Positions 1 to 48,158 of a DNA stretch of 64,000 nt are shown here, one piece after another (position 1 is the first letter of the stretch; the number at the start of each line of letters is the position of its first letter). Where the stretch lies: NCBI RefSeq assembly GCF_000429365.1, contig NZ_AUBS01000001.1, forward strand, positions 372,001 to 436,000, written 5' to 3'. The DNA is from Pseudodonghicola xiamenensis DSM 18339 (GTDB lineage: Bacteria > Pseudomonadota > Alphaproteobacteria > Rhodobacterales > Rhodobacteraceae). A program made the translations under genes and the position numbers. A model generated the notes under the pieces. It saw nothing but the letters and a program-made list of their open reading frames with translations, did not search any database and was not told where the DNA came from.

Positions 1-1
1 G

Positions 2-1342
2 GATGCGGCCTCCGGCGCGGTGCTCGACACCGGGAACTCCGATGTCGATCCGGTGTTCTCCGGCGCCGCCGACACGTTCGAGGCGGAATATGACACCGCG
101 ACCGTGCTGCACTTCCAGCTCGAGCCGCTGAATGCCACCGTCTTCCGCAATGCCGAAGGCATCTGGGAAGTGCACACCGGCAATCAGTGGCAATCGCTTT
201 GCCTGCCCTGGATCCAGCAGGCGCTGGAGGTGGGCGATGGCGAGGTCATCATGCGCACCTACATGCTGGGCGGCGGCTTCGGCCGGCGGCTGAACGGCGA
301 TTACGCTATCCCGGTGGCGCTGGCGTCGAAGGCGCTCGGCGGCAAGCCGGTGAAGATGGTGATGAAGCGCGAGGATGACGCGCGGTTCGACAGTCCGCGC
401 TCGCCTTCCGTCTCGAAGATGCGGATGGCCTTCGATGCCGACAAGAGGGTCATCGCCATGGACAGTGCCGTGGCCTCGGGTTGGCCGACCAAGGTGATGA
501 TCCCGGGCTTCATGCCCAAGGGCACCAATGGAGAACCCTATGATCCCTTCGCCTCCGACGGGGTGGATCACTGGTACGAGGTTGGCGCGCAACGGGCGCG
601 GGCGATTTCGAACGAACTGGCCGAAAGTGCCTTTCGCCCGGGCTGGCTGCGCTCGGTCTCGCCGGGGTGGATCAACTTCGCGGTGGAAAGTTTCATGGAC
701 GAGGCGGCGCGCCACATCGGCGCCGATCCGCTGCAGTTCCGGCTGGATCACTTCACCGCCGAAGGCCGCAACGCCGGCAGCGCGCCGGATTCCGTCGGAG
801 GCGCCAAGCGTCAGGCCGCGGCGCTGAGCCGGGTGGCCGAGATGTCGGGCTATGGCCGCAGCGATCTGCCCGCCGATACCGCCATCGGCATCGCCACCAC
901 CTATGGCCAGTCGCGCGGCATGCCCACCTGGGTCGGCGGCGCAGCACAGGTGCATGTCGATCGCAAGACCGGCCGGGTCGAAGTGCAAAAGCTCTGGCTG
1001 GCGGTCGATTGCGGCATCGCGGTCGATCCCGACGGGGCGCGGGCGCAGATCGAGGGCGGCGCGCTCTGGGGGCTGTCGATGGCGCTCTACGAGGGGACGG
1101 AATTCGAGGCGGGCCAGGTCCGCGATCGCAACCTCAACAGCTACACGCCGCTCCGGATGATCGACGCACCGGAAATCGAGGTCGAGGTGATGGAAAGCAC
1201 CGAGGCGCCGGTGGGGCTGGGTGAGCCCGGCACCACCGTGGTGGCCCCGGCCATTGCCAACGCGATCTTTGCCGCGACCGGCGCCCGGCTGCGCAGCCTG
1301 CCGATCACCCCGGACAAGGTTCTGGCCGCGCTTCAAGGCTGA
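2..1342 (+). CDS. Molybdopterin-binding aldehyde/isoquinoline oxidoreductase large subunit (IorB-like), 5'-truncated by window edge
   Basis: The frame is open from base 2, so the gene begins outside the window. The visible part is the C-terminal two thirds of a xanthine dehydrogenase-family molybdenum subunit of the isoquinoline 1-oxidoreductase beta type. Members hydroxylate N-heterocycles or oxidise aldehydes using molybdopterin cytosine dinucleotide, with a small 2Fe-2S partner. Visible signatures are the GGGFGRRL loop that contacts the cofactor and, near the end, GLGEPGTTVVAPAIANAI, which carries the conserved active-site Glu. The partner [2Fe-2S] subunit should lie upstream, outside the window. 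A strong terminator follows the stop. The substrate cannot be read from sequence. A MocA-like cofactor nucleotidyltransferase gene at about 24 kb is consistent with use of such enzymes. Confidence 0.88.
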   Translation, partial: DAASGAVLDTGNSDVDPVFSGAADTFEAEYDTATVLHFQLEPLNATVFRNAEGIWEVHTGNQWQSLCLPWIQQALEVGDGEVIMRTYMLGGGFGRRLNGDYAIPVALASKALGGKPVKMVMKREDDARFDSPRSPSVSKMRMAFDADKRVIAMDSAVASGWPTKVMIPGFMPKGTNGEPYDPFASDGVDHWYEVGAQRARAISNELAESAFRPGWLRSVSPGWINFAVESFMDEAARHIGADPLQFRLDHFTAEGRNAGSAPDSVGGAKRQAAALSRVAEMSGYGRSDLPADTAIGIATTYGQSRGMPTWVGGAAQVHVDRKTGRVEVQKLWLAVDCGIAVDPDGARAQIEGGALWGLSMALYEGTEFEAGQVRDRNLNSYTPLRMIDAPEIEVEVMESTEAPVGLGEPGTTVVAPAIANAIFAATGARLRSLPITPDKVLAALQG

Positions 1343-1366
1343 GGCGCCCTCTCTCTCGGGCCAGTG

Positions 1367-1394
1367 CGGCCGGCCCTTCGGGGCCGGCCGTTTT
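1367..1394 (+). terminator. Rho-independent terminator after the molybdenum hydroxylase gene
   Basis: A perfect 10-bp GC stem (1367-1376 with 1381-1390) closes on a TTCG tetraloop and is followed by TTTTC. It sits 24 bases after the stop codon, between two convergent genes. Confidence 0.9.
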
Positions 1395-1418
1395 CGTTTG
1401 CGGAAGGAACGCCAGGGT

Positions 1419-3599
1419 CTATTCGGCCGCGATGCTCTTGCGGGGGAGGGAGATGGCGCTCTCATGGCGGGATCGAATCGGCCAGTCCCAGTGGTCGCTT
1501 TGCGGCTCCTGCAATGCTGCGACATGGGCGGTGATCCGGCGGATCAGGGCGCCGTCGGCTTTGCGATCCAGACCAGGGTAAGGGGCGCCGTTATAGGAAC
1601 CGTCATAGGCCAGCACGTCCTCGATCCGGCCGGTTTGGGCGTAAATCTCCTGGATCTTGCGACATTCCTTGACCGGTGCCTCGGCCTTCAGTGCGAACAG
1701 CACGGCAAGGGCGGCGCCGTATTCCAGTGCGTCGCTGGACAGGCCGTGCCGGCGCGCCATGTCTATGGTGCCGAAGATGCGTTCGCGGCGCTGCAACTTG
1801 CGCAGCGGGTCACGGCCCACCCGCGCCGTGGTATCCTTGAACGAACTGCGGCAACGGGTCACGAAGGTCTTTGCAAATCCCGGCAGCAAGGGTGCCGCCG
1901 CCGGAAACTCTGCCAGCAGCGCCGGGCGAACCTCATCTTCCAGCAACCGGTCGACCAGGGCCGCGACGCGCGGATCGCTCATGCCCTGGCCGATGGTGTC
2001 ATGGCCCAGAAGCGAGGCGTACCAGGCGGTGATCGCATGGGTGCCGTTCCACAGCCGGTTCTTGATCATCTGCACCATATGGATGTCGTCGACGGTATGG
2101 ATCTGACGCAGGCGTGACAGGATCGGGGCGCCGGCTTCGGCATAAAGCGCCATGTCAGGCTCGCTGTGATAGAGCACCAGATTGAGCTGATCGAGCGCCC
2201 GGGCGGTTTCGGCTGCCTCATGCAGCCGTTGTGCCGAGCGGGTAAGGCGGGCGGGCATCTCGGGTGCGATCTCTACGGGAGCCGGGGCGGGGCGGGTCAG
2301 CTCATCGAATATCTTCAGCTTAATCTTGGCCTGACGCATCACCGCCGCCTTGCTCAGCCGCGAGACGATGCGGTTCACCACGGTCTCGGGAATCCGCGTC
2401 TTGGCCATGATCCGGTCGCTCAGGTCCGGCGCCTCGGCGCGCAGAGCGGCTTCCACCACGTCGCGAATGAAGTGCGCGCCATGCACCTTGTTGACGATCG
2501 GCAGGATCACCAGATCATCGCCGCCGGCGGCGTGCCGCGCCAGCAGCCCGCGCGCGATCAGCGGCGCCTGCTGGCGGATTGCCCCTTCGGGCAGGCTGAG
2601 GCCGACAATCGCAGCCTCGCTATACATCCGGCAGATCGCCGCCTCGTCATCGCTGTCGATCAGCCGAATGGTGTCGATGGTCTGATCGAAGGCCAGTCCG
2701 CCGTAGCGCACGGTGTATTTCCCGAAGGAGTTCACCAATTCGCGCAGCACCGGATCGCCGGTGACACCGATGATCTCCTGCGGGCGGGTATAGCCATCCC
2801 AATGGGCGAAGATCTGCGCCAGATAGCCTCCGCCCATCGCGCCGAAGCCATGGATGCCGACCTTGGCCTCGTTCAGCGTGTCGGGAAAGGGATCTGTCAG
2901 CTTCGGGATGGGCAGCGCCGGGGTGGTCTGGCGCAGATCGTGCAGAAAGCCTTCCATCCCGTCCTCATAGCCGCGAAAGGCGCGGGCGCGGATATCGGGG
3001 TGCGGTGGTTTGATATCCCGGACATAGATCGGCAGCCCGCCAGCCGCGTCGGCCGCGCGCAACCCGTTTTCGCTGTCTTCCATGATCAGGCAGCTGTCCG
3101 GCGCACAGCCCAGATCGCGCGCCGCGCGCAGGAAGATCTCCGGATCGGGCTTGCCGTTCACCACCTCATCGCCGCAGACGGTGATATCAAAGTATTTCAA
3201 CACATTGGCGTTGATCAGATATTCCTCGGCGATAGCGCGGCGGGACGATGTGGCGACCGCCAGCGACAGCCCGTTGCGGCGCAACCGTTCCAGCACCTCG
3301 TAAAGCCCGGGCTTGACCGGGACGCCATGACGACGGACATGCTCCAGTTCCAGCTCGTCCGCGCGTTCGCGGATGGCCTGATAGGGATAAGCGGCGCCGT
3401 TGTGGTCTTTCGCCAGTTCCTCGGCGCGCAGGGCGCTGAGCCCGAGTGATCCGATAAGGGTGGCGTCAGCGATTGGCTTGCCGGTCAGCTCGACCGAGGC
3501 CTGGCGGATGGTGTCGAACCGCAGGCGTTCGGTGTCGAACATCGTGCCGTCCATATCGAAGATGACTGCGTGTATCGGTTTTTGGCCGAACTGTATCAT
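1419..3599 (-). CDS. mtlD: Bifunctional mannitol-1-phosphate phosphatase / mannitol-1-phosphate 5-dehydrogenase (HAD-MtlD fusion)
   Basis: The 726-residue protein joins two enzymes. Residues 8-220 are a HAD phosphatase: DMDGT with Asp15 and Asp17, TSS at 117-119, GKPDPE around Lys150 and MEDSENG at 173-179. Residues 245-700 are a polyol-specific long-chain dehydrogenase, with a Rossmann loop GFGAMGGG at 251-258 and the family signature KxxxxNxxH (Lys513, Asn518, His521). The same architecture is known from Acinetobacter MtlD, which reduces fructose-6-phosphate to mannitol-1-phosphate and dephosphorylates it to mannitol as an osmoprotectant. The ATG start at 3599 has AGGA seven bases upstream. 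No mannitol uptake genes are adjacent, which favours a biosynthetic role (inference). Confidence 0.87.
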   Translation of the reverse strand: MIQFGQKPIHAVIFDMDGTMFDTERLRFDTIRQASVELTGKPIADATLIGSLGLSALRAEELAKDHNGAAYPYQAIRERADELELEHVRRHGVPVKPGLYEVLERLRRNGLSLAVATSSRRAIAEEYLINANVLKYFDITVCGDEVVNGKPDPEIFLRAARDLGCAPDSCLIMEDSENGLRAADAAGGLPIYVRDIKPPHPDIRARAFRGYEDGMEGFLHDLRQTTPALPIPKLTDPFPDTLNEAKVGIHGFGAMGGGYLAQIFAHWDGYTRPQEIIGVTGDPVLRELVNSFGKYTVRYGGLAFDQTIDTIRLIDSDDEAAICRMYSEAAIVGLSLPEGAIRQQAPLIARGLLARHAAGGDDLVILPIVNKVHGAHFIRDVVEAALRAEAPDLSDRIMAKTRIPETVVNRIVSRLSKAAVMRQAKIKLKIFDELTRPAPAPVEIAPEMPARLTRSAQRLHEAAETARALDQLNLVLYHSEPDMALYAEAGAPILSRLRQIHTVDDIHMVQMIKNRLWNGTHAITAWYASLLGHDTIGQGMSDPRVAALVDRLLEDEVRPALLAEFPAAAPLLPGFAKTFVTRCRSSFKDTTARVGRDPLRKLQRRERIFGTIDMARRHGLSSDALEYGAALAVLFALKAEAPVKECRKIQEIYAQTGRIEDVLAYDGSYNGAPYPGLDRKADGALIRRITAHVAALQEPQSDHWDWPIRSRHESAISLPRKSIAAE

Positions 3600-3972
3600 T
3601 CTGGATCCTGTGTTGCCTCATGTGGCTCCTCCCAGATCGTCTAGGGTGAGGATATGCCGCAGCCTTCTCCTCCAAGGCGACGGGGCCCTCGATGGATTGT
3701 CTTTCGGCCCGGCGCACGCGGGGGCGCATGCGGGGCCTGCCTGCGGGTGATGAATTGAGGACGGTCCAGGACCTGTCCTCAGGCAGAGCGATAGAGTGCA
3801 GGCAACGGGCGCGATAGGTGAACGGCCCGGGCTCCGCCCGTCGGCAAATGTGCCGAATGTGCCTGTTAACGGTAACGGGCAGGGGGAAACCTGTCAAACG
3901 ACGGGCAGGGAAATCCCGGCGGCGGGCATCTTTCGGGGCCGGAGTGCCACAAGTTTGGGCACTGCGGCGGGA
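3600..3972. other. Intergenic region between mtlD and the MATE gene
   Basis: This 373-bp stretch holds the upstream region of mtlD, which is read leftward. I see no convincing gene. One visible element is a tandem TAACGG/TAACGG at 3867-3878 flanked by CCTG and CAGG, a possible but unproven regulatory site. Reading frames here overlap mtlD out of frame and look like shadows. Confidence 0.5.
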
Positions 3973-5358
3973 TCAGGCGGCAGGAGGTTTTTCGATCACC
4001 ATGTCATGTTCGGCGCGCCAGTTGCCGAAGACGTAGAGCAGCGTCGCCATCATCAGCGTCGCCACCAGAGCCGCGGGAAAGCTGAACCACAGCGCATCGA
4101 CGCCCAGCCAGCCCTGCAAGCCATAGGCCACCCCCAGCCGCACCGGAAACATCGAGATGAAGAGGATGATCAGAGGCCAGAGCACCTGACCGTTGGCGCG
4201 GATGGTGGCGAAAAGCACCATGGTCACGCCGAAGGGGATGAAGCCCCAGGTGGCGAGCTTGGCGATATGGCGGCCGATCTCGACCGCCGCGGCCTCGTCG
4301 CCCAGAAACAGCCGCATCGCCGATCCGTCGGCCCACAGAAGCAGCGCCACCAGCCCGCCGGTCAGGATCAGGTTGAACACAATGCCCGATCCGGTGATCC
4401 GGCTGACCCGATCCCAACGTCCGGCGCCGATGTTCTGTGCCGTCATCGCGCTGACGGCCGCGCCGAGCGCCATCGCCGGCATCTGCACATAGGTCCAGAG
4501 CTGCTGGGTCGCGCCGAAGGCGGCGGTGGTGTCGATCCCCTGGCGGTTAACCAGATTCATCATCGCCAGCATCGAACTGGAGACGACGATCATCTGCACC
4601 CCCATCGGCAGCCCCTTGACCAGCATCAGCTTCAGGATCGCCGGATCGGGGCGCAGGTATTTCAGCTCCGCCCCGCGCAGCCGCAGCGGCAGGTCGCGGG
4701 CGTAGACATAGCCCAGCATGGCGACAAGCGCGGTGTAATTTGCGATCGCCGTCGCCAGGGCCGAGCCGCCGATGCCGAGGGTCGGGAAGGGGCCGAGCCC
4801 GAGGATCAGCACCGGGTTCAGCCCTATATCCAGAACCACCGCCAGCGCCATGAAGATCAATGGGGTGATCGCATCGCCGCTGCCGCGCAGCGTCATCATC
4901 AGCATCGTCATCGTCAGGATGGCGGGGAAGGCCAGAAAGGTGACACGCAGAAAGTCCCGGGCCAGGGGCGCGATCTCCGGCTCGGTTCCAAGCAGGTTCA
5001 GCACATGGGGCGCGACGAACCAGCCCGCCACCGCCAGCAGAAGCGCCAGAGGAACGAAAGCGCCGATGGCGCTGCCGGCGACCCGGCGCGCGGCGGCGAT
5101 GTCGCCGCGCCCGACCGACTGACCGACCAGGATGGTCGCGGCCATGCCAAAGCCGAAGACGAAGGCAGTCAGCAGAAACATCACCAGATTGCCGTTGGTG
5201 GTGGCTGCCAGCGCATCGCTGCCCAGCAGCCGGCCGACCCAGACCGCGTCAATCGACCCATTGGCCGATTGCAGGATCGAAGACAGCAGCGTTGGAAGGG
5301 CAAAGGCCAGCAGCGTCGGGCCGATCGCCGCAGTGACCAGATTGTTCCGGGTCTTCAA
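3973..5358 (-). CDS. MATE family efflux transporter
   Basis: A 461-residue integral membrane protein with about 12 hydrophobic segments in two related halves, matching the usual MATE length of about 450-460. It should export cationic drugs or metabolites in exchange for Na+ or H+. I chose a TTG start at 5358 because GGAGG lies seven bases before it and the first residues, MLKTRNNLVTAAIGPTLLAF, begin just before the first membrane helix. The frame stays open for another 110 codons upstream, but that part is Pro/Arg-rich and looks non-coding. No regulator is adjacent and the substrate is not predictable. Confidence 0.85.
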   Translation of the reverse strand: MKTRNNLVTAAIGPTLLAFALPTLLSSILQSANGSIDAVWVGRLLGSDALAATTNGNLVMFLLTAFVFGFGMAATILVGQSVGRGDIAAARRVAGSAIGAFVPLALLLAVAGWFVAPHVLNLLGTEPEIAPLARDFLRVTFLAFPAILTMTMLMMTLRGSGDAITPLIFMALAVVLDIGLNPVLILGLGPFPTLGIGGSALATAIANYTALVAMLGYVYARDLPLRLRGAELKYLRPDPAILKLMLVKGLPMGVQMIVVSSSMLAMMNLVNRQGIDTTAAFGATQQLWTYVQMPAMALGAAVSAMTAQNIGAGRWDRVSRITGSGIVFNLILTGGLVALLLWADGSAMRLFLGDEAAAVEIGRHIAKLATWGFIPFGVTMVLFATIRANGQVLWPLIILFISMFPVRLGVAYGLQGWLGVDALWFSFPAALVATLMMATLLYVFGNWRAEHDMVIEKPPAA

Positions 5359-6145
5359 GGGGCTGCCTCCGACAGGGATGCTGTTGGCGACAGGCGTATC
5401 AGTCGACGGCGGGCAGGTAAATCGCCGGTTCAGCGGGCAGGCCGGCTGTTGCCGTTCGGGGCCACGCGGGGATGCGGGTATCCGAAGACTGGCGGCGTGG
5501 GGGCCCGACCGGGACCGATAGGCCGGATGTGGCTTTCTCTCTGCCCTCCGCCCGGAACTGCCCTGTATCGCCACCTGTTCCGGGCCGGGCATGGGATAAC
5601 GGCCGACAAAACGGATGGAACGACGACAAGCCGGCGCCGGTTGGAATAGGTTGGGGGGACCGAAAGACAGAGCGCATATCGAAAACACCTCATAAATCAG
5701 CCTTCCGCGTTCCGCGAGAAGGGCAAATCTATGACCACGGTGTCCGGACTCGACATGCGGGGCCGCATCTAAGCATTTCGGCGGTTTGGGTCGGAAACCG
5801 CCAGTCTTCGAACCGGTTCAGTTAGGGAAAGACCGGCGGGCCTGTCAAGGCGGTTTGCGCATCTCATAAGCCGCAGGGTCTGAGGTGGCCCTGGCTGGGC
5901 CAGATCGCGACCGCGAGGCGTGGGGCCGGGTAGGTGGCGCTGCGGGCGCGGAAACCAATTCGGGCTGTCACGGGGATGTCAAAATCGTGTGATTTCATCG
6001 CAAAAATCGGGGGTCGCGACAGTACGCCGCAGTGCAGAACCGACCAATCGGCCTTAGGCGCGGGGGCGTACCAAAAGTTCCGGTTTGCCGGCCCTCTCTC
6101 GCACTCTTGTTTGCCGGCGGCTCGGACAAGAACAAGAGGCTCGCC
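5359..6145. other. Long intergenic region between divergent MATE and quinol oxidase genes
   Basis: About 790 bp separate two divergent transcription units. I found no persuasive gene: frames here are short, Arg/Pro-rich and lack ribosome binding sites. The region must carry the promoters for the MATE gene (leftward) and the oxidase operon (rightward). It also contains a perfect 8-bp inverted repeat, listed separately. Confidence 0.5.
5780..5802. repeat. 8-bp perfect inverted repeat upstream of the quinol oxidase operon
   Basis: GGCGGTTT at 5780-5787 pairs with AAACCGCC at 5795-5802 across seven bases. No T-run follows, so it is more likely an operator or structured RNA than a terminator. It lies about 340 bases before cyoA. 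Confidence 0.5.
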
Positions 6146-7219
6146 TTGCAACTTAAAAACCTCCTGCTGGCAGGGGTTGGCGCTTTTGCGCTTTCCGGAT
6201 GTCAGTACCATGTTCTGTCACCGCAGGGATGGGTGGGGGATCAGGAACGCAACCTCCTGATCATTTCCACACTTCTCATGCTGATCGTGATCATTCCCGT
6301 TCTGGTGATGTCGGTCTATTTCCCGCTGAAATATCGCGCGGATCGGGCTGATACCTCGGATTATGATCCCCATTTTGAACACTCCACCAAGCTGGAGCTG
6401 GTGATCTGGGGCGTTCCGATCCTGATCATCATCGCGCTGGGGTGGTTCACCTATGTCTATACCCACCGGCTCGACCCCTATCGCCCGCTGGATCATCTCG
6501 AGGCCGGCAAGCCGGTCGAGGTTCAGGCGGTGTCGCTCGATTGGAAATGGCTGTTCATCTATCCCGAATTCGGTGTTGCCTCGGTCAACGAACTGGCAAT
6601 TCCCGCAGGTCGTCCGGTGAACTTCAGCCTGACCTCCTCGACGGTGATGAACACCCTGTCGATCCCGGCGCTTGGTGGCATGGTCTATTCGATGGCCGGC
6701 ATGGAGACCAAGCTGCACCTGATCTCGGACAGCACCGGCACCTTCGCCGGCCGTTCGGCGCATTATTCGGGCCCGGGCTTCGCACAGATGACCTTCGATA
6801 CGCTGTCTATGAACGACAGTGACTTCAACGCCTGGATCGAAAAGGTTCGCGCCGAGGGCACTCCGCTGACCCGCGACACCTATCTGACCCTGGAGAAACC
6901 CAGCATCGCCACGCCGGTTCGCTACTACGGTACGGTCGAAAAGGATCTGTTCCAGCGCGTGGTCGAGCTTTGCGTCGAAGACGGCAAGGTCTGCATGGGT
7001 GAGATGATGATGCAGGACGAGATGGGCGGCGGCGGCATCGCCGGTATCCCGAATGCAGCGGCCTATGATTACGACCGCCCGCGCGCCATCGACGGTTTCG
7101 GCAATCCGATTGATCTGCCGTCCAACCTGCCGGAACTCGATACCCAGGCGTTCCTGTTCTCGCCCGACCAGATTTGCAGCGTCGCCGAACTCAAGGAGAC
7201 GACCACCAATGTCAACTAA
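6146..7219 (+). CDS. cyoA: Cytochrome bo3/ba3 quinol oxidase subunit II (lipoprotein)
   Basis: Subunit II of a quinol oxidase in the inner membrane. I chose the TTG start at 6146 because AAGAGG lies six bases upstream and the product then opens with a lipoprotein signal, [19 protein letters not shown], with lipobox LSGC. Two transmembrane helices follow, then a periplasmic cupredoxin-like domain that lacks the CuA-binding cysteine motif, as expected for quinol rather than cytochrome c oxidases. At 357 residues it is longer than E. coli CyoA (about 315). The extra residues lie mostly in the C-terminal tail, which includes a Met/Gly-rich stretch. The 3' end overlaps cyoB by 11 bases. Confidence 0.93.
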
Positions 7220-9203
7220 CATGACACAACCCAGCGAGACGCTGTCGCCGATCTTCGGCCGCCTCAGCCTCGACTGGATTCCCTACCACGAACCGATCCT
7301 GATCGGCACTTTCGCGGGCGTTGCGCTCGGCGGGCTGCTGGTGCTGGGTCTGATGACCTATTTCCGCCTTTGGGTTCCGCTGTGGAAGAACTGGATCACC
7401 ACGGTCGACCATAAGAAGATCGGCATCATGTATATGGTGCTGGGCTTCATCATGATGGTGCGCGGTTTTGCCGACGCGCTGATGATGCGGGCGCAGCAGG
7501 CGATGGCCGCCGGCGGCGCCGAAGGCTATCTGCCGCCGCACCACTTTGATCAGGTGTTCACCGCCCACGGCGTGATCATGATCTTCTTCGTGGCGATGGC
7601 TTTCGTCACTGGCATCATGAACTATGTCATGCCGCTGCAGATCGGGGCCCGTGACGTGGCTTTCCCGTTCCTGAACAACTTCTCGTTCTGGATGACGGTG
7701 GCCGGGGCGCTGCTGGTCAACATCTCGCTCTTCATCGGGGAATTCGCCCGGGTCGGCTGGCTGGCCTTTCCGCCCTTGTCGGGCTCGGCCTTCAGTCATG
7801 GGCCTGGGGTGGATTATTACCTCTGGGCGCTGCAGATCGCCGGTGTCGGCACGACCCTGTCGGGCATCAACCTGATCGCGACCATCCTGAAGATGCGCGC
7901 GCCGGGCATGAAGATGATGGACATGCCGATCTTCGCCTGGACCTCGCTGATCACCAACGTGCTGATCGTCATCTCCTTCCCGGTGCTGACGGCGACGCTG
8001 GCGTTGCTGACGCTCGACCGCTATCTCGGGTTCCACTTCTTCACCAACGACTTTGGTGGGAACGCGATGATGTACATCAACCTGATCTGGATCTGGGGTC
8101 ACCCCGAGGTCTATATCCTGATCATCCCCTGCTTCGGCGTCTTCTCGGAAATCGTGTCGACCTTCTCGGGTAAGCCGATCTTCGGCTACAAGACCATGGT
8201 CTGGGCTACCGCCTGCATCATGGTGCTGAGCTTCGTCGTCTGGTTGCACCACTTCTTCACCATGGGGTCGGGGGCGAACGTCAACACCTTCTTCGGCATT
8301 ACCACGATGATCATCGCGGTGCCGACGGGCGTGAAGATCTTCAACTGGCTGTTCACCATGTACAAGGGCCGCGTGCGGCTTGAAGTTCCCATGCTGTGGA
8401 CCATCGGCTTCCTGATCACCTTCACCATTGGTGGGATGACCGGGGTTCTGCTGGCGGTTCCGCCGGTCGACTTCCAACTGCACAACACGCTGTTCCTGAT
8501 CGCCCACTTCCATAACGTCATCATCGGCGGCGTGGTCTTCGCAGTCTATGCGGCAGTGACCTACTGGTGGCCCAAGGCCTTCGGCTTCAAGCTGAGCGAG
8601 AAATGGGGCCGTCGGTCGTTCTGGTTCTGGTTCGTCGGCTTCTATTTCGCCTTCATGCCGCTTTATGCGCTGGGGCTGATGGGGGCGACGCGTCGGGTCA
8701 ACATGTACCCCGATGCCGGCTGGCAGCCGTATTTCATCGTCGCCGCCTTCGGGGCCTTCCTGATCCTGCTGGGGATCGTCTGCACCTTCATCAACTTCTA
8801 CGTGTCGATCATGAACCGCAAGGCGCTGGCCTGTGGCAATGACCCTTGGGATGGCCGGACGCTGGAATGGGCGACCCAATCGCCGCCTGCGCCCTACAAC
8901 TTCCCGCAGGAGATCCATGTGCGCGGCCGTGAGGAGTTCTGGCGGATGAAGCAAGAGGGCTTCGCCTGGTCCAAGGACTATGCGCCGATCCATATGCCCA
9001 AGGGCACCGCGACGGGCGCCCTTCTGGCTGCTGGTGCGCTGGTCTTCGGCTTTGCCATGGTCTGGTACATCTGGTGGCTCGCCATCGCCAGCTTCCTGGG
9101 CATGCTGATCATCGGCATCGGCCATACCTTCAACTACAACCGCGACTACTACATCCCCGTGGATGAGGTTGCCGAGACCGAAGCGAAAGGAGCCCTGGCA
9201 TGA
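7209..9203 (+). CDS. cyoB: Cytochrome bo3/ba3 quinol oxidase subunit I
   Basis: The 664-residue catalytic subunit, nearly the same length as E. coli CyoB (663). It carries the haem-copper ligands: His in [11 protein letters not shown] (low-spin haem), the cross-linked pair in [12 protein letters not shown], the CuB histidines in WLHHFF and the haem ligands in HFHNVIIGG. The [10 protein letters not shown] stretch resembles the Arg/Asp quinol-binding region of CyoB. It reduces O2 to water with quinol electrons and pumps protons. The ATG at 7209 overlaps the end of cyoA and the stop overlaps cyoC in ATGA, so translation is probably coupled. Confidence 0.96.
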
Positions 9204-9832
9204 GCCCGCTCGACGCGACCCGGACCCCTGCTTCGGGGGCCGGCCACGCCGTGACCGATCACGATCACGGCGGCCATCACGCCAGCCCGACGCCGATCGG
9301 GTTCTGGATCTACCTGATGAGCGACTGCATCATCTTCGGTGCGTTGTTCGCGACCTATGCGGTGCTGGGCTACGGCTATGCCGGCGGCCCGGGACCCAAG
9401 GACCTGTTCGAACCGGGCTTTGTCGCGGTGGAAACCGCGCTGCTGCTGTTCTCGTCCATCACCTTCGGGCTGGCGATGCTGCAGGCCGACAAGGGCAAGC
9501 GCGACGGCACGCTGATGTGGCTGGCCGTCACCGGGGTCCTCGGCCTGGGCTTCATCGCAATGGAAGTCTACGAGTTCCGCCACCTGGTCCATATCGGTGC
9601 CGGTCCTGACCGTTCGGCCTTCCTGTCGGCCTTCTTCGCGCTGGTCGGCACCCACGGTCTGCACGTGACCGCCGGCACCATCTGGCTGGTGACGCTGATG
9701 GTGCAGATCGGCATGCATGGGCTGATTGGTGCCAACATGCGGCGTCTGGGGACGCTCAGCATGTTCTGGCACTTCCTCGACCTGATCTGGATCGGGGTCT
9801 TCTCCTTCGTCTATCTGGTGAGGTTGGTCTGA
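9200..9832 (+). CDS. cyoC: Quinol oxidase subunit III
   Basis: A 210-residue COX3-type membrane protein with five predicted helices, the typical number for CyoC. The N-terminal 25 residues are His-rich before the first helix at [17 protein letters not shown]. The helix containing the motif EVYEFRHLV is characteristic of subunit III. The ATG overlaps the cyoB stop (ATGA) and has AAAGGAG upstream. It stabilises the oxidase rather than performing catalysis. Confidence 0.94.
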
Positions 9833-10200
9833 TGAGCGAACATTCCCAACACGGTAGCCATGGCACCATGGGCCGGCTGATGGTCGGCTTCGCGCTGGCC
9901 GCGATCCTGACCATCATTCCCTTCGCCCTGGTGATGGGCGAGGTCGAGATGGAGCGGACCACGCTGATCGGCATCATCATGGGCCTGGGCGCGGTGCAGA
10001 TCATCGTGCATCTGGTCTACTTCCTGCATGTCAGCGGTGACTCGGAAGAGGGCTGGACGCTCGGCTCGACGCTGCTGGCATTGATCATCCTAGGTATCGT
10101 TCTGGCCGGCTCGCTCTGGGTCATGCACAATATGAACGAGAACATGATGCCCCAACATGATATGGACAAGATGATGAACCTTCAGTCCCAACAGGGCTGA
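9832..10200 (+). CDS. cyoD: Quinol oxidase subunit IV
   Basis: A 122-residue protein with three hydrophobic segments and the sequence VQIIVHLVYFLH, typical of CyoD/COX4-prokaryotic subunits needed for oxidase assembly. Its ATG shares a base with the cyoC stop (TGATG). The C-terminus is Met-rich (ENMMPQHDMDKMM), which may bind copper, but that is speculative. The operon's main terminator follows 20 bases later. Confidence 0.93.
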   Translation: MSEHSQHGSHGTMGRLMVGFALAAILTIIPFALVMGEVEMERTTLIGIIMGLGAVQIIVHLVYFLHVSGDSEEGWTLGSTLLALIILGIVLAGSLWVMHNMNENMMPQHDMDKMMNLQSQQG

Positions 10201-10220
10201 ACCGTTCTGATTTGATCCCA

Positions 10221-10251
10221 GCCGGGGCCGTTCGTTCGGCCCCGGCTTTTT
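10221..10251 (+). terminator. Terminator/attenuator between cyoD and the SURF1 gene
   Basis: A perfect 9-bp stem (10221-10229 with 10238-10246) and an 8-base loop are followed by five T residues. Because the SURF1 gene starts 17 bases later on the same strand, this probably sets a lower level of SURF1 relative to the oxidase subunits. Confidence 0.9.
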
Positions 10252-10267
10252 CGTGGAGAAAGACCAA

Positions 10268-11002
10268 ATGACCCGAGAGTCCCTTCCCGCCATTCGCTGG
10301 CCGCGTCTGATGATCGTTACCCTGATCGCTCTGATCGGGGTCGGAGGCTTTGCCCGGCTGGGCATCTGGCAAGTGCATCGGCTGCACTGGAAGCTCGATC
10401 TGATCGAGCGGGTCGAGGCCCGTGTCGATGCGGATCCGGTGCCGGCCCCGGGGCCGGAGGCCTGGCCGGCGATCACCGCAGCGAGCGACGAATATCGCCG
10501 GGTGAGCCTGCAGGGGCAGTTCCGTAACGATCAGACGGTGCTGATCTACACTCCCTCGGATTTCGGTCCGGCCGATTGGGTGCTGACGCCGCTGGAACGC
10601 GACGATGGCACCGTGGTGATGATCAACCGCGGCCTGGTGCCCGAGGACCTGGCGCTGGCCGGCAGCTTCGATGCCGCGCCGGAGGGTGAGGTGATGGTCA
10701 CCGGCCTGCTGCGGATATCCGAGGACAAGGGCTGGCTGTTCTCGCGCAAGAACGATCCGGAGAATGGCAAATGGTATCGCCGTGACATCGGGTCGATCAC
10801 CAGTGCCAAGGGGCTCGAGCGCGCAGCGCCCTATTTCGTCGATCAGCAGCTTGGCGACCCGAAGGCCTGGCCGAGGGGCGGGCAGACGGTGGTTTCCTTC
10901 CGCAACGCGCATCTGAGCTATGCCCTGACCTGGTTCGCGCTGTCTCTGCTGGTGCTGGGCGCCTGGGTTTTCGTCCTCTGGACCGAGTTGCGCCGCCGCT
11001 GA
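10268..11002 (+). CDS. SURF1 family haem-copper oxidase assembly protein (Surf1q-like)
   Basis: A 244-residue protein with one N-terminal and one C-terminal transmembrane helix enclosing a periplasmic domain, the standard SURF1 topology. The N-terminal helix ends in GIWQVHRLHWK, the SURF1 signature region, and the C-terminal helix carries HLSYALTWFALSL. I chose the ATG at 10268, with GGAG nine bases upstream, over an in-frame GTG at 10253. SURF1 proteins deliver haem a to the oxidase. In Paracoccus denitrificans a dedicated Surf1q serves the ba3 quinol oxidase, so its location here suggests the oxidase uses haem A (inference). Confidence 0.9.
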   Translation: MTRESLPAIRWPRLMIVTLIALIGVGGFARLGIWQVHRLHWKLDLIERVEARVDADPVPAPGPEAWPAITAASDEYRRVSLQGQFRNDQTVLIYTPSDFGPADWVLTPLERDDGTVVMINRGLVPEDLALAGSFDAAPEGEVMVTGLLRISEDKGWLFSRKNDPENGKWYRRDIGSITSAKGLERAAPYFVDQQLGDPKAWPRGGQTVVSFRNAHLSYALTWFALSLLVLGAWVFVLWTELRRR

Positions 11003-11033
11003 GGCGGCAGGGGGCGGATAACGGAAAGGCCGG

Positions 11034-11053
11034 AGGGGCAGTGATATGCCCCT
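11034..11053 (+). terminator. Weak stem-loop after the SURF1 gene
   Basis: AGGGGCA (11034-11040) pairs with TGCCCCT (11047-11053) around a six-base loop. Only a short T-containing tail follows, so termination is plausible but not certain. Confidence 0.4.
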
Positions 11054-11247
11054 TCATTCCTGTCGGCGCGGGCATGGGGCGCTGTGTGCTTTTTTGCCAG
11101 AGGTGGGCAGGGCGCGTTCTTGCCTGGGACGGCAGCGCCACGCGCCGGCAGGGGCCTGCCTGGGGTGCAAACGTCAAGCATCAGTTGCGTTTGCCGCGGA
11201 TTTGGCGAAAACCGAAATCAGAAAAAAAATCGCAGGAAGGACGAGAG

Positions 11248-12087
11248 ATGAGTGAAGACGCCTATGATCCGGGAACAGAAGGCGCCCGGATGAGTTTTGC
11301 CGATGCCATGTCCTACGGCGATTATCTCAATCTCGACGGACTTCTGGCACAGCAAAAGCCGCTGAGCGGTGCACATGACGAGATGTTGTTCATCATCCAG
11401 CACCAGACCAGTGAGCTGTGGATGAAGCTGGCCATTCATGAGCTGGCCGCCGCGCGCAGCGCGATGAATGCCGGGCAGATGAGCCATGTGTTCAAGATGC
11501 TGGCCCGGGTCAGCCGGATTTTCGAACAGCTCAATAATGCCTGGGACGTGCTGCGCACCATGACGCCCGCTGATTACACCCGATTCCGCGACGCGTTGGG
11601 GCCATCGTCGGGGTTCCAGTCCTATCAATACAGAATGATCGAATATATTCTGGGCAACCGGAATCCGAACATGCTGAAACCCCATGCGCACAGCCCCGAG
11701 GTGCAGCAGATGCTGCAGGCGGAGCTCGCACGGCCAAGCTTCTATGACGATGTGATCCGGTTGCTGTTCGTTACCATCGACGGGCCGGATGCCGATGTCC
11801 CGGCGCCGCAACTGGGCCAGCCGCACAAGCCGGTCGAGGCGGTGCAGGAGAAATGGACCCAAGTCTATCAGGATGTCGATCGCTGGTGGACGCTCTATGA
11901 ACTGGGCGAGAAGCTGGTCGATCTCGAGGATTATTTCCGTCGCTGGCGGTTCAATCACGTGACCACGGTCGAAAGGGTGATCGGTTTCAAGCGCGGCACC
12001 GGCGGCACGTCGGGGGTGCAATATCTGCGCCGCATGCTCGAAGTCGAGCTGTTCCCGGAACTCTGGCATTTGCGCGGCGGTTTGTAA
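11248..12087 (+). CDS. kynA: Tryptophan 2,3-dioxygenase
   Basis: The 279-residue haem enzyme opens the indole ring of L-tryptophan to N-formylkynurenine, the first step of the kynurenine pathway. Aligning by spacing with the Xanthomonas enzyme gives His52 (substrate-binding base), Tyr110, Arg114 (carboxylate contact) and His237 (haem ligand), all present with a constant offset of three. The motif GTGGTSG near the C-terminus matches the substrate-binding loop. The ATG at 11248 is preceded by an AGGAAGGACGAG ribosome binding site. The longer frame upstream is Arg-rich and rejected. No kynureninase or formamidase gene is adjacent. Confidence 0.95.
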   Translation: MSEDAYDPGTEGARMSFADAMSYGDYLNLDGLLAQQKPLSGAHDEMLFIIQHQTSELWMKLAIHELAAARSAMNAGQMSHVFKMLARVSRIFEQLNNAWDVLRTMTPADYTRFRDALGPSSGFQSYQYRMIEYILGNRNPNMLKPHAHSPEVQQMLQAELARPSFYDDVIRLLFVTIDGPDADVPAPQLGQPHKPVEAVQEKWTQVYQDVDRWWTLYELGEKLVDLEDYFRRWRFNHVTTVERVIGFKRGTGGTSGVQYLRRMLEVELFPELWHLRGGL

Positions 12088-12163
12088 CCCGCTGCCAACA
12101 GGTGAATGGCGGTGTGGGCGGAGATGGCCTTGACCTCCTCCGCCCCGAGGCCGTGATTGCTGT

Positions 12164-13033
12164 TCAGGGTTGTCCCTTCAGCGTGAGGATGAGGGTTGAG
12201 ATATCGTCCTCGGCATGACCCAGATCACAGGTGGCCTGCATCAGGGCGCGGGCGCTGTCGGTCATCGGCAGCTCGGCCTCAGCCCCGCCCACCGCCGCGA
12301 TGGTGTCGAGATCCTTCAGCATCATCGCCACCGTGCCCAGCGGGTTTTCGAAGCTTTCCGTCGCCATCCGCGGCGCCAGAAGCTGGAAGGGCTTGGAATC
12401 GGCGAAGCCCCCCGCCAGTGCCTCGGTCAGCCGGGTGGCATCCACCCCCATGACTCGCGCGAAATTCACCGCCTCGGCCACCACCGCCATGGTGCAGCCT
12501 GCAATGATCTGGTTGACCAGCTTGGTCATCTGCCCGGCGCCGAGATCGCCCATATGGGTCACCTTCTGCGCCAGGGGCGCCATCAGCGGCTCGGCACGGG
12601 CGAAATCCGCCGCGCTGCCGCCGGCCATGATGGTCAGCGTTCCCGCCGTCGCCGCCGGCGTGCCGCCGGAGACCGGGGCATCGACCCAGCCCATGCCATT
12701 GGCCGCGCGCAGACGCGCGCCGAATTCTCGCGTCAGCCCCGGATCCATTGAGGAAAAGTCGATGAACATCTCCGGCCCCGTCACCTCGGCCACGCCATTC
12801 TCGCCGAACAGCACGGCCTCGACGGCGGCGGCATTGGTCAGACAGGCCATGACCACATCGCTCTGGCGTGCCAGATCGGCGGGGCTTTCGGCGCGCCGGG
12901 CGCCAGCGGCCACCGCCGCATCGCATTTCGACGCGGTGCGGTTCCAGACGGTGACCTCATAGCCCGCCTTCAGCAGGTTCATCACCATCGGCTCGCCCAT
13001 CAGCCCGGTGCCGAGGTACCCCAGACGCGGCAT
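12164..13033 (-). CDS. NAD(P)-dependent beta-hydroxyacid dehydrogenase (3-hydroxyisobutyrate dehydrogenase family)
   Basis: A 289-residue protein with an N-terminal Rossmann domain (GTGLMGEPM at residues 7-15), the family substrate-binding motif DAPVSGGTPAA and the catalytic-Lys region GAGQMTKLVNQ. Relatives include 3-hydroxyisobutyrate dehydrogenase and tartronate semialdehyde reductase. I chose the ATG at 13033 (MPRLGYLG) because GGAGGA lies six bases upstream. An ATG two codons earlier overlaps the upstream stop in ATGA and is also possible. It is co-transcribed with the IlvD/Edd dehydratase, so it probably acts on a product of that pathway. The exact substrate is unknown. Confidence 0.88.
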   Translation of the reverse strand: MPRLGYLGTGLMGEPMVMNLLKAGYEVTVWNRTASKCDAAVAAGARRAESPADLARQSDVVMACLTNAAAVEAVLFGENGVAEVTGPEMFIDFSSMDPGLTREFGARLRAANGMGWVDAPVSGGTPAATAGTLTIMAGGSAADFARAEPLMAPLAQKVTHMGDLGAGQMTKLVNQIIAGCTMAVVAEAVNFARVMGVDATRLTEALAGGFADSKPFQLLAPRMATESFENPLGTVAMMLKDLDTIAAVGGAEAELPMTDSARALMQATCDLGHAEDDISTLILTLKGQP

Positions 13034-13035
13034 CG

Positions 13036-14763
13036 TCATTCCTCCACCTCGTCCACCGGCCAATCGACCGCGCCGGAATGGGTGATCGCCCCGTAATAGG
13101 CGCTTTTCACCTGGGCCGCGTATTTCTCATGGGCGCCGGCCAGGCGGCGGGGCGGACGGGCGGCCAGCGCCTTGCGGCGCGCCTCCAACACCTCTGCATC
13201 GACCAACAGGTCGATGACGCGCGCCTCGCGGGTGTCGATGCGGATCATATCGCCATTCTCGACCAGCCCCAGCGGGCCGCCGTTATAGGCCTCGGGCGAG
13301 AGATAGCCGATGCACATCCCCCGCGTCGCCCCGGAGAAGCGGCCATCGGTGACCAGCGCCACCTTTTCGCCCATGCCCTGACCATAGATCACCGCGGTCG
13401 GCCCCAACATCTCGCGCATGCCGGGGCCTCCGGCGGGGCCCTCGTTGCGGATGATGATCACGTCGCCCTCCTGGTAATCGCGCTTGCGGACGGCGGCCAT
13501 GCAGTCCTCCTCGCTCTCGAACACGCGGGCCGGGCCCTCGTGCACCCGGACCTTGAGGCCCGCGACCTTGATGAAGGCGCCCTCGGGGGCGAGGTTGCCC
13601 TTGAGCACGATCACCCCGCCCGAGCTGTCGCGCGGGTTGTCGACCGATCGGATCACCTCGCCATCGGGTGCCGGCGCATCGGCCACCGCCTCGGCCAGGG
13701 TCTGACCCGACAGCGTCAGCGTATCGCCATGCATGTGACCCGAGCGGATCAGTTCCTTGATGATCACCGGCACGCCGCCCAGACAGTGCACGTCCAGCGC
13801 GTAATATTGCCCGCCGGGGCGCAGGTTGCCGATCAGCGGCGTGCGTTCGAAGACGGCGCCTACATCGTCCATGGTAAAGAGGATGCCGGCCTCATGCGCG
13901 ATGGCCGAGATATGCATGCCGGCATTGGTCGACCCGCCGGTGGCGGCGACGATGGCGCAGGCGTTTTCCAGCGACTTGCGGGTGATCAGATCGCGCGGCA
14001 GCGGGCCGCCACGGTCGAGGATCTCCATCACCATCTGTCCCGCGTGGCGCCCCAGCGCCACCCGTTCGGAATAGACCGCCGGCATGGTGGCGCTGCCGAG
14101 GGGGGCGATGCCCAGCACCTCTGAGACCATGCCCATGGTATTGGCGGTGAACTGGCCGGGGCAGGCGCCGATGGTGGGCATGGCGACCCGCTCCATCGCG
14201 TCCAGATCCTCCTGGCTCATCTCTCCGGTCATCACCGCGCCGGCGCCTTCGTAGGTATCGAGGATCGAGACGGTCTTGCCCTTGTACATCCCCGGCAGGG
14301 TCGAGCCGCCGAAGACGAAAACCGAAGGCACGTTCAGCCGCACCATCGCCATGATCAGTGCCGGCAGGTTCTTGTCGCAGCCGCCGTAGCCCACCAGCCC
14401 GTCATAGGCATGGCCGCGCATCACCAGTTCGACCGAATCCGCGATCAGGTCGCGCGACATCAGCGAATTCTTCATCCCCTGATGGTTCATTGAAAACCCG
14501 TCCGAGACCGAGATGGTGGTGAATTCGCGCGGTGTGCCGCCGGCCTCCTGCACGCCACGATAGGCATAGCGCGCCTGATCGCCCAGATTGGCGTTGCAGG
14601 GCGAGGTCTCGCCGGCGGTGGAGACCACGCCGATCATCGGCCGCGCCATGGCGTCATCGTCGAGGCCCTGGCCGCGATAGAAGGCGCGGTGCGGCACCCG
14701 GTCGAGCCCGTCCACGGTGATGCGGGAACGTAGCTTGCGGTTGCTGGCCTTGGGGTCTGTCAT
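13036..14763 (-). CDS. IlvD/Edd family dehydratase (dihydroxy-acid or sugar-acid dehydratase)
   Basis: A 575-residue Fe-S dehydratase of the IlvD/Edd family. It has the conserved cluster and substrate motifs NANLGDQA (Cys in SPCN just before), [21 protein letters not shown] and, near the C-terminus, [11 protein letters not shown]. It converts a 2,3-dihydroxy acid to a 2-keto acid. The family includes IlvD of branched-chain amino acid synthesis and aldonate dehydratases such as L-arabinonate dehydratase. The neighbours (hydroxyacid dehydrogenase, MhpD-like hydratase, TRAP transporter) favour a catabolic sugar-acid role. The ATG at 14763 has AAGGAA upstream. A further 73 in-frame codons upstream look non-coding. 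Confidence 0.86.
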
Positions 14764-21495: not shown

Positions 21496-23937
21496 ATGGC
21501 AGTCAGCCCCAAAAGCACGAGTGGTATCGTCGACGGCGATGCTGGCGACAATCGTATCGACCTGGCTTATACCGGCGACCCCGAAGGCGATGTGATCGAC
21601 GGCAGCGATGCGCCGGCCCCGGGGATGAATGACGACATCGTCAATGCCGGTCCGGGCAACGATTATGTCGAGGCGGGCGAGGGCGACGATACGGTCTATG
21701 CCGGCAGCGGCGATGATGAGGTCTATGGCCAGGGCGGCAACGATATCATCTATGGCGACAGCGACGGGCCAGGCACGGATTACAACGGTGGCCGCGAGGT
21801 GCTCCAGTGGGACGAGGCGCCCGACCCCGACGATGGCGGCCAGATCGACCCCTTCGATTCCCTCAAGGGCGGCTTTACCCAGAACACAGGCAGCGTCGAT
21901 GTGACCTTCGCGGTCACCGGGTCAGATGGCAACACCAATACCGCGCTGTCCGCCGAAGCCGAGAATGTCGAGGGGATCGTCACCGATGGCGCCGCAGCCT
22001 CGGCCACCAGCGGGCTGGATTCCCTGACCAATGGCGAAGGCAATAGCGTCGGCTACGAGCTGTCCTTTTCGGACGAGGTCGAAAACGTTTCCTTCCGGAT
22101 CAACGATGTCGATGGCGACGGGATCGTCAAATTGCAGGCCTTCGACGCGGCAGGCAACCCGGTCGAGGTGACGTTGAGCGCCGGATCGGGGGTGACGCTG
22201 CTGGATACCGATACGGTGACCGGCGCCGATACCGCAGATTCCAACGGTGGCTATGATGCCAATGACAGCTCGACCTATTCGGTTCTGGTGACCATCGAGG
22301 GCCCGGTATCGCGGTTGACCATTGATCACAGCCAGGATGGGATCAATAACTCGGGCATCACCGTCACTGACGTCTATTTTGATACCGGCGCCTCCGAGGT
22401 CGATCTGCAGCCGGGTGACGATTACCTCGACGGCGGTGATGGCGATGACACCATTTATGGCGAGGCCGGGGATGACACGCTGATCGGCGGCGCCGGCAAT
22501 GATACGATCTATGGCGGCGACGGCAGCGATACGGTCTATGGCGGCGACGGCGACGATTATATCGACACCTCTTCGACCAGCGGTATCCCGCTGCCTGATC
22601 GTGGCTTTCCGTCTTACATGGGGCTGCCCGAAGTGCCCGCCGACAGCGATCCCTATGACGATCGCGATACTGTCTATGGCGGCGCCGGCAATGACACCAT
22701 CCTGACCGGTGACGATAATGACGTCATCTATGGCGGTGACGGCAACGATTATATCGACGGCGGTCTTGACGACGATTACATTGAGGGCGGCGAGGGCGAC
22801 GATTTCATCATCGGCGGCGAAGGCTCGGACGAGATCTATGGCGGCGGCGGTGACGATATCATCTATGGCGGCCTGCCGCCCAGCTATCCCGACGGGATGA
22901 ACATCCCCGATGACGGCAGCGTCGGCGACCCCGATCCGGTGACCGACAACGGCAAGGATGTCATCTATGGCGGGGATGGCAACGACACCATCTTTGGCCA
23001 GGACGATGACGACATCCTCTATGGCGGTGAGGGGAACGATTATCTCGACGGTGGCATCGACGACGATTATCTCGACGGTGGCGAGGGCGACGATACGCTG
23101 GTTGGCGGCGAAGGCGCCGATATCATGCTGGGCGGATCTGGCCGTGATAATTTCATCGGCGTCACCGATGGCGATGTGATCGACGGAGGCACCACTGGCG
23201 ACGATTTCGACACGCTCTATATGGGCGGTCAGCGCTATCGCATCATTTCCGAGACCACCGATGCCGATGGGGATTCGACATCAGGCACGATGGAGTTGCT
23301 GGACGAACACGGCAATGTCACCGGCACCGTCCAGTTCAACGAGATCGAAAAGATCGTCCCCTGTTTCACGCCCGGCACCCGGATCGCAACGCCCGAGGGT
23401 GAGCGTCTGGTCGAGGATCTGCAGATCGGCGATCTGGTGATGACCCGCGATAACGGCATCCAGGAAATCCGCTGGATCGGCGAGCGGGAGCTGGCCGGTG
23501 CCGAAATGGCCGAGCATCTGCAGCCGGTGCTGATCGGCAAGGGCGCGCTGGGGAACGGCCTGCCTGAGCGTGACATGATGGTCAGCCCGCAGCACCGGGT
23601 GCTGATCGCCAGCGACCGTAATGCGCTGTATTTCGAAGAGCGCGAGGTGCTGGTGGCGGCCAAGCATCTGACCTGGATGAAGGGGGTCGAGCGGGTGGAG
23701 TGCGCCAGCGTCACTTATATCCACTTCATGTTCGACCAGCACGAGGTGGTGTTGTCTGATGGTGCCTGGACCGAAAGCTTCCAGCCCGGCGATCTGACGC
23801 TTGGGGGCATGGACAGCGCCCAGCGGATGGAAATTCTGGAGCTTTTCCCGGATCTCAAGACCCGCGAGGGGATGGCGGCCTATCCCGCGGCCCGACGGTC
23901 GCTGAAACGGCATGAGGCGGTGCTGCTGATGCATTGA
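21496..23937 (+). CDS. Secreted RTX calcium-binding protein with C-terminal Hint domain
   Basis: An acidic 813-residue protein. Residues ~40-100 and 300-560 contain many GGxGxDxIYG nonapeptides, the RTX repeats that form Ca2+-binding beta-rolls. A non-repeat segment at ~110-300 has a beta-rich adhesin-like character (SDEVENVSFRINDVDGDG). From Cys623 (VPCFTPGTRIATPEGERLV) the protein is a Hint domain of the type common in Rhodobacteraceae, with the HRVLIAS block downstream. There is no Sec signal peptide, so type I secretion is likely. Hint domains can cleave at their N-terminal Cys, which could release the RTX part; this is inference. The ATG has AAGGAG eight bases upstream. No T1SS genes are adjacent. 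Confidence 0.9.
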   Translation: MAVSPKSTSGIVDGDAGDNRIDLAYTGDPEGDVIDGSDAPAPGMNDDIVNAGPGNDYVEAGEGDDTVYAGSGDDEVYGQGGNDIIYGDSDGPGTDYNGGREVLQWDEAPDPDDGGQIDPFDSLKGGFTQNTGSVDVTFAVTGSDGNTNTALSAEAENVEGIVTDGAAASATSGLDSLTNGEGNSVGYELSFSDEVENVSFRINDVDGDGIVKLQAFDAAGNPVEVTLSAGSGVTLLDTDTVTGADTADSNGGYDANDSSTYSVLVTIEGPVSRLTIDHSQDGINNSGITVTDVYFDTGASEVDLQPGDDYLDGGDGDDTIYGEAGDDTLIGGAGNDTIYGGDGSDTVYGGDGDDYIDTSSTSGIPLPDRGFPSYMGLPEVPADSDPYDDRDTVYGGAGNDTILTGDDNDVIYGGDGNDYIDGGLDDDYIEGGEGDDFIIGGEGSDEIYGGGGDDIIYGGLPPSYPDGMNIPDDGSVGDPDPVTDNGKDVIYGGDGNDTIFGQDDDDILYGGEGNDYLDGGIDDDYLDGGEGDDTLVGGEGADIMLGGSGRDNFIGVTDGDVIDGGTTGDDFDTLYMGGQRYRIISETTDADGDSTSGTMELLDEHGNVTGTVQFNEIEKIVPCFTPGTRIATPEGERLVEDLQIGDLVMTRDNGIQEIRWIGERELAGAEMAEHLQPVLIGKGALGNGLPERDMMVSPQHRVLIASDRNALYFEEREVLVAAKHLTWMKGVERVECASVTYIHFMFDQHEVVLSDGAWTESFQPGDLTLGGMDSAQRMEILELFPDLKTREGMAAYPAARRSLKRHEAVLLMH

Positions 23938-41438: not shown

Positions 41439-41450
41439 TTGACCTGCGTT
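41431..41450 (+). repeat. Tandem 10-base duplication across the Hsp70 start codon
   Basis: GACCTGCGTT occurs twice back to back, at 41431-41440 and 41441-41450. The proposed TTG start begins at 41439, at the junction. Confidence 0.7.
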
Positions 41451-43139
41451 GGTATCGACCTTGGAACTACGAATTCGCTGATCGCAGTTTATGAGGAAAA
41501 CGGGCCGCGACTGTTGCCAAATGCATTGGGTGAGTTTCTGACCCCTTCGGTTGTTGGTCTTGCCGATGATGGAAAGTCCCTTCTGGTCGGACGCGCGGCC
41601 AAAATGCGCCTTGTGCGTCATCCGAAACTCACTGCCGCGCGATTTAAACGCTTGATGGGAACGGACAGACGTATCCGGCTTGGTCGGCAAAGCTATACTG
41701 CGGTGGAGTTGTCCGCCATGGTGCTGAGAACCCTCAAGGCGGATGCCGAGGCCGCGTTGGGGGCGCCGGTTTCCGAGGCGGTGATTTCCGTGCCCGCCTA
41801 TTTCAACGGGGTGCAACGGCAGGCCACGAAAGACGCCGCCGAGATCGCCGGTTTGACAGTTCGTCGTCTGATCAATGAACCCACCGCGGCGGCGCTGGCG
41901 GCCGGGGTCCTGGACATGGGGGCCGAGAGCACATTTGCGGTTCTCGATCTGGGGGGCGGCACCTTTGACGTTTCGATCCTGGAAATGTTCGAGGGCGTCA
42001 TGGAGGTCCGCGCCAGTTCCGGGGATGCACAACTGGGAGGCGAAGACTTCACGAACAGGATCGCGACTGATCTGGCCCGAACCGCAGGGGAGGAGTGGGA
42101 TCGCCTGGAGCCCGGCGAGCGTGAGGCCTTTCTAAGCATCGCCGAAGAGCTGAAGCGGCGTGTGCGGCCTGACGTCCCCGCACGCGCGCAAATCTCGATC
42201 GGGCAGCGGCCCCTGACAGTCGAACTGACGACTGAGCGCCAGGATGAAATCGTCAAGGACCTAGTGGCCCGGTTGCGGCGGCCAATTGATGTCTGCCTTT
42301 ACGATTCCAGCATAACCGTGGACGATATTGATCGGGTCATTCTGGTCGGTGGCGCCACGCGTATGCCTGTTGTCCAGTCGCTTGCGGCCCGCGTCTTTCG
42401 CAAGCTCCCCGAGCGAACCGTGGACCCCGACCATGCCATTGCATTGGGCGCTGCGGTTCAGGCCGGGCTGGTTGCGCGCCACAGTGCGCTGGATGACGTG
42501 GTGATGACAGATGTCGCGCCGTTTTCATTGGGCATCGCATCTGGAACGAAAATCAATGGCAAGTACTTCGGTGATCGCTTCGCCCCGATTATCGAACGCA
42601 ACACGATCCTTCCCGCAAGCCGAAGCCAGGTATTTGCGACTGCTGGCGACAATCAGGTCGAGATCCAAGTTCAAGTCTATCAAGGCGAATCCGTTGTGGC
42701 GTCTGAAAACGTGTTGCTGGGAGACTTTTTCGTCCCGGTGCCGCGCGGCCCACGCGGCAAGGAAGCGATCGAGGTGCGTTTTACCTATGACGTCAGCGGA
42801 CTTTTGGAGGTTGATGTGCGCGTTCTCTCAAACGGAAAGCGCGTTGTCGATGTGATCGACAATCTTGCGTCGGCCATGACCGAAAAGGAAAAAATGCGCC
42901 GCCTCAAAGAGCTTGAGGGCCTGAAGATAAGCCCATTCGAGGCTGCTGAAAACGTCGCCTTGATCGAAACCCTGAAACATCTGCACGAGATGCTGCTGGC
43001 GGATGATCGCAGGTCTTTGCAAGATCTGTTGAATCAGTTTGAAGCGGTATTGGCCGAACAGGACCCCAAGGCCATAGCCGCCGAACGCGCGCGACTGCTC
43101 GAAATCGTGAAGCGGATCGAGGAAAACTATGTCCGCTGA
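41439..43139 (+). CDS. HscC-like Hsp70 family chaperone
   Basis: A 566-residue Hsp70, shorter than DnaK (~638) and close to HscC in length. The ATPase domain has GIDLGTTNS at ~5-13, [31 protein letters not shown] and [11 protein letters not shown], all intact. The substrate-binding beta domain begins at [11 protein letters not shown]. The lid is short and ends with a helical region ([20 protein letters not shown]). The TTG start has AAAGGGA seven bases upstream. It overlaps the next gene, a J-like partner, by 11 bases. Third codon positions look less GC-biased than in core genes nearby, suggesting transfer. Confidence 0.87.
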
Positions 43140-48097: not shown

Positions 48098-48158
48098 CCT
48101 GTATCGACAGGAGCCTATGACGCAGCCCGCTCGGTCTCAACCATGAAGTGCAATGGGG

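Follow-up and report, generated by a model that had tools for sequence, protein, structure and literature searches.

The closest described counterpart of the locus considered here is the bifunctional MtlD of Acinetobacter, in which a HAD-family phosphatase is fused to a mannitol-1-phosphate dehydrogenase. The purified A. baumannii enzyme prefers NADPH and requires salt for its activity, MtlD is induced by osmolarity and mannitol is made under salt stress, and once mtlD is deleted the cells neither accumulate mannitol nor grow at high salt (PMC6291793). A paper of 2018 described the enzyme as confined to Acinetobacter (PMC6291793), and the synthesis of mannitol as a compatible solute in bacteria has been described as rare (PMC7876524). 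A genome survey of phototrophic bacteria presents the marine Rhodobacteraceae as users of ectoine and betaine (PMC7824335). Here we consider a fusion of this kind in Pseudodonghicola xiamenensis DSM 18339, encoded in a stretch of 64,000 nucleotides that we refer to as the window.

Architecture of the fused enzyme

The mtlD open reading frame starts with ATG and runs uninterrupted for 726 amino acids (Table 1), and it is the only copy in the whole 4.73-Mb genome. The original prediction of a HAD phosphatase fused to a mannitol-1-phosphate dehydrogenase is borne out by the Pfam domains of this intact protein and by its match to NF046057, a full-length NCBIfam equivalog, which aligns residues 4-678 with profile positions 2-683 and passes the curated cut-off (928.6 bits against 800, E 2.2e-279). 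Among the Pfam domains, the match of the NAD(P)-binding domain lies barely above its threshold (3.9e-06; 27.4 bits against a cut-off of 27). The nearest solved structures are MtlD entries (PDB accession code 7ocn and related ones), which align with residues 4-656 (E 1.9e-181 for 7ocn); the Acinetobacter enzymes (A. baylyi, A. baumannii) have the same domain order and the same catalytic residues. The 7ocn alignment and the NF046057 score also uphold the assignment to the bifunctional Acinetobacter type of MtlD, and, judged by its sequence, the protein is a further member of this known kind of enzyme (NF046057).

Table 1. Features of the mtlD locus; positions are those of the window.
Feature	Position	Strand	Basis
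mtlD, fusion of HAD phosphatase and mannitol-1-phosphate dehydrogenase	1419..3599	-	ORF call, NF046057, 7ocn alignment
HAD-family phosphatase domain, residues 12-187, presumed nucleophile D15 and acid/base D17	3039..3566	-	Pfam HAD_2, 1.9e-30
NAD(P)-binding Rossmann domain, residues 251-417, HGFGA(M/I)G loop at 250-256, N370	2349..2849	-	Pfam Mannitol_dh
Mannitol dehydrogenase C-terminal domain, residues 509-640, K513-x4-N518-x2-H521	1680..2075	-	Pfam Mannitol_dh_C, 1.7e-15
Upstream region conserved with P. flavimaris, promoter-like (putative role)	3600..3898	-	Alignment

The conservation of individual residues is read from an alignment of 46 full-length sequences, in which the window protein is joined by 45 homologues; the set spans the alpha-, beta- and gammaproteobacteria and the Clostridia. 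The HAD motif residues D15, D17, T19, T117, S118, P151 and D175 are invariant in all 46 sequences, as is the dehydrogenase triad K513, N518 and H521; the residues H250-G251-F252-G253-A254, G256, N370 and D589 are likewise unvarying throughout. The catalytic residues on which the fusion was originally recognised (Asp15/Asp17 in one half, Lys513/Asn518/His521 in the other) are thus all present. In line with what is established for these enzyme families, we take D15 and D17 to be the HAD nucleophile and acid/base, and the three residues of the dehydrogenase half to be the K-x4-N-x2-H triad of the polyol-specific long-chain dehydrogenases. According to the alignments, the PDB variants 7ocs and 7oct have changes at positions equivalent to D15 and N370.

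Comparison with related enzymes

While the Acinetobacter homologues share the architecture of the window protein, they are 44-49% identical to it and are not its closest relatives. The full-length fusions of Verticiella sediminum and Oxalicibacterium flavum (L009 and L010) are 61% identical over 708 residues, a span that includes most of the C-terminal tail; this tail aligns with betaproteobacterial and Pseudomonas homologues but poorly with those of Acinetobacter. The Verticiella and Oxalicibacterium proteins are betaproteobacterial and uncharacterised, and their genes differ from the present one in having no upstream GTTACCGTTAAC block.

The separate halves also have known relatives. Single-domain mannitol-1-phosphate 5-dehydrogenases (PRK02318 group; 3h2z), the usual catabolic partners of the mannitol phosphotransferase system (PTS), contain a related C-terminal catalytic domain but no phosphatase domain, and the mannitol PTS that would partner them is missing from this genome. 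Stand-alone HAD sugar phosphatases (HxpB and the beta-phosphoglucomutase group) have the HAD fold and the catalytic motifs but are unfused, and the window protein scores well below their curated cut-offs.

Distribution

How widely does the fusion occur? In the genome collection, full-length relatives are found in Acinetobacter, Pseudomonas, several betaproteobacteria, Steroidobacter, Clostridia and one rhodobacteral genus, so the Acinetobacter-only statement of 2018 is out of date. The rhodobacteral genus is Pseudodonghicola (Rhodobacterales, Paracoccaceae in the NCBI placement), where both of the genomes sampled carry mtlD. The second copy encodes a protein identical to that of P. flavimaris IC7, and the two Pseudodonghicola proteins are 77% identical to each other. 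The sole genus-mate found, P. flavimaris, belongs to the order Rhodobacterales, in agreement with the probable Rhodobacteraceae-type host that had been read from the DNA. In the family survey the fusion is present in one of 247 sampled genera and missing from the other 246; the P. xiamenensis genome is the sole carrier in a class sample of 385 genomes, and a phylum sample of 398 genomes contains 2 carriers. The family and class surveys contradict mtlD as a general trait of the Rhodobacteraceae, and with it the original suggestion that mannitol is a compatible solute in this group. They leave the Rhodobacterales with one defined genus in which mannitol may now be sought, and the wide list of relatives makes the trait testable in many laboratory strains.

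One further full-length fusion (L045:1142-3274) is located in a metagenome bin labelled Crenarchaeota. This label is doubtful because the sequence groups inside the Clostridia in the whole-protein tree, and it may reflect a mislabelled or misbinned contig or a binning error.

Upstream region and flanks

When the window is compared by blastn with the P. flavimaris locus (18 kb), a single block aligns, made up of mtlD without its final 119 bp and of about 280 bp upstream of the gene. Within the upstream part both species have the pair TTGACA-N17-TACCGT, which has a poorly conserved spacer, overlaps the perfectly conserved CGTTACCGTTAACAGGC and would place a leader of roughly 250 nt ahead of the mtlD ATG. 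The identity between the two species is about 68% from the TTTGACAG block to the ATG (about 75% over the first 52 columns from this block onward) and about 41% over the preceding 61 columns. A consensus promoter scan does not report the pair, which was noticed through its conservation only. The 13-mer CGTTACCGTTAAC has a single occurrence genome-wide with up to one mismatch allowed, and its core is found in no other homologue locus compared, so that no regulon is suggested. The conserved block resembles a promoter and may include an operator, a reading that is weak on sequence alone.

Around mtlD lie genes for a MATE exporter and a molybdenum hydroxylase subunit, and the cyo oxidase cluster. 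In P. flavimaris about 180 kb of one contig separate mtlD from the cyo cluster, and the remaining flanking sequences of either species turn up at scattered places in the genome of the other, which leaves a simple insertion into a site that is otherwise preserved unsupported. The flanks, which differ between the species, offer no functional hint of mannitol or osmoadaptation. The MATE efflux transporter is encoded upstream of mtlD on the same strand (3973-5688, minus strand), and a search with positions 1-14000 of the window finds nothing in the genus-mate that matches its DNA substantially.

Origin of the gene

In the whole-protein tree the two Pseudodonghicola sequences pair with a support of 100 and join Verticiella and Oxalicibacterium in a group of weak resolution that is separate from Acinetobacter. 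The original prediction had proposed a phylogeny of each half against Acinetobacter MtlD. In such trees the pair adjoins Oxalicibacterium for the HAD half (SH-aLRT 86) and Verticiella for the dehydrogenase half (SH-aLRT 82), and both halves are nearer to the betaproteobacterial full-length fusions than to Acinetobacter. The link to Acinetobacter therefore stands for the architecture and the type of enzyme and falls for close descent; direct descent from Acinetobacter is unsupported by the whole-protein and half-protein trees alike. Because the two half-trees show a similar history, the fusion has most likely been inherited whole. The patchy distribution and the betaproteobacterial nearest relatives suggest in turn that the already fused gene was probably transferred into Pseudodonghicola from another group, the donor group being placed by quick trees with modest support.

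Alternatively, mtlD could be an ancestral alphaproteobacterial gene that was lost nearly everywhere else rather than acquired. The two species of the genus do share the gene at the protein identity given above, and its composition (GC 0.644, GC3 0.80) is not strikingly foreign, but this descent has to accommodate the absence of mtlD from the other 246 family genera and from all other class genomes sampled, as well as the betaproteobacterial nearest relatives and a chromosomal setting that differs between the two species, and we regard it as quite unlikely. As evidence for transfer the base composition is uninformative: the GC3 is slightly under that of most neighbours but not outside the range spanned by the genes of the window.

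Proposed function

We turn to the metabolic setting of the enzyme. Across the whole genome (estimated 100% complete) there are 0 matches to PTS_EIIC (PF02378), in a search for which the control genomes are positive and which covers uptake by the PTS rather than by ABC-type polyol transporters; the lack of mannitol phosphotransferase genes, first remarked on in the window, thus extends to the genome. A second mannitol dehydrogenase is also not found genome-wide by its C-terminal domain (PF08125), a search that covers proteins with this domain rather than the short-chain polyol dehydrogenases. With neither a PTS EIIC nor another PF08125 protein, the usual catabolic partners are missing. No mannitol uptake gene is recognised adjoining mtlD in either Pseudodonghicola species. 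Since the genome encodes an ectoine synthase and a transporter of the BCCT type, mannitol would come in addition to other solutes.

The best reading of the fused MtlD, and one that we consider likely, is mannitol biosynthesis by one protein in two steps, with an osmolyte role and a gene acquired in its fused form. By homology, the dehydrogenase half would convert fructose-6-phosphate to mannitol-1-phosphate with NADPH or NADH, and the HAD half would remove the phosphate to give mannitol. The phosphatase step would be effectively irreversible and would direct the flux towards mannitol, which would accumulate, presumably under osmotic induction, as an osmolyte beside ectoine and imported betaines. 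The genus would have gained mtlD already fused, by a transfer in the direction suggested by the trees, and would transcribe it from its own promoter. Mannitol as an osmolyte in P. xiamenensis is plausible; given the ectoine synthase and the BCCT transporter, it may be a minor solute or serve another purpose.

Could MtlD instead work mainly in mannitol use, oxidising mannitol-1-phosphate to fructose-6-phosphate after uptake like the single-domain MtlD of PTS-bearing bacteria? Its dehydrogenase half is related to the catabolic mannitol-1-phosphate 5-dehydrogenases (NF002653), but the genome has no PTS EIIC to produce mannitol-1-phosphate, the fused phosphatase would destroy the substrate and no mannitol uptake gene is recognised beside mtlD in either species; the lack of any other mannitol dehydrogenase likewise disfavours use rather than synthesis, and we consider such a role highly improbable. 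A different purpose for the product, as a carbon or redox reserve or a radical scavenger and not an osmolyte, would fit a genome that already has an ectoine synthase and a BCCT-type transporter, and strains assigned to Pseudodonghicola produce the storage polymer PHB (PMC7264318); it appears unlikely against the salt induction and salt activation of the characterised Acinetobacter enzymes (PMC6291793). Under the preferred reading, the synthesis of mannitol as an osmolyte, we tentatively entertain a wider possibility: one fused gene with its own promoter could pass from one bacterial group to another, distant one as a mannitol module of a single gene, and could add de novo mannitol to the ectoine/betaine system of this marine genus. 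Within the open-access literature, we know of no earlier demonstration of such a module in the Rhodobacterales.

Other features of the window

Apart from the mtlD locus, the window encodes a protein of 813 aa that combines RTX calcium-binding repeats with a Hint domain at its C-terminus (21496-23937, plus strand) and a Type I restriction-modification set that consists of an R subunit (1135 aa), a specificity subunit and an N6 methylase (44690-50845, minus strand). The gene of an Hsp70-family protein of 566 aa (41439-43139, plus strand) has a third-position GC of 0.66, the lowest among the genes measured.
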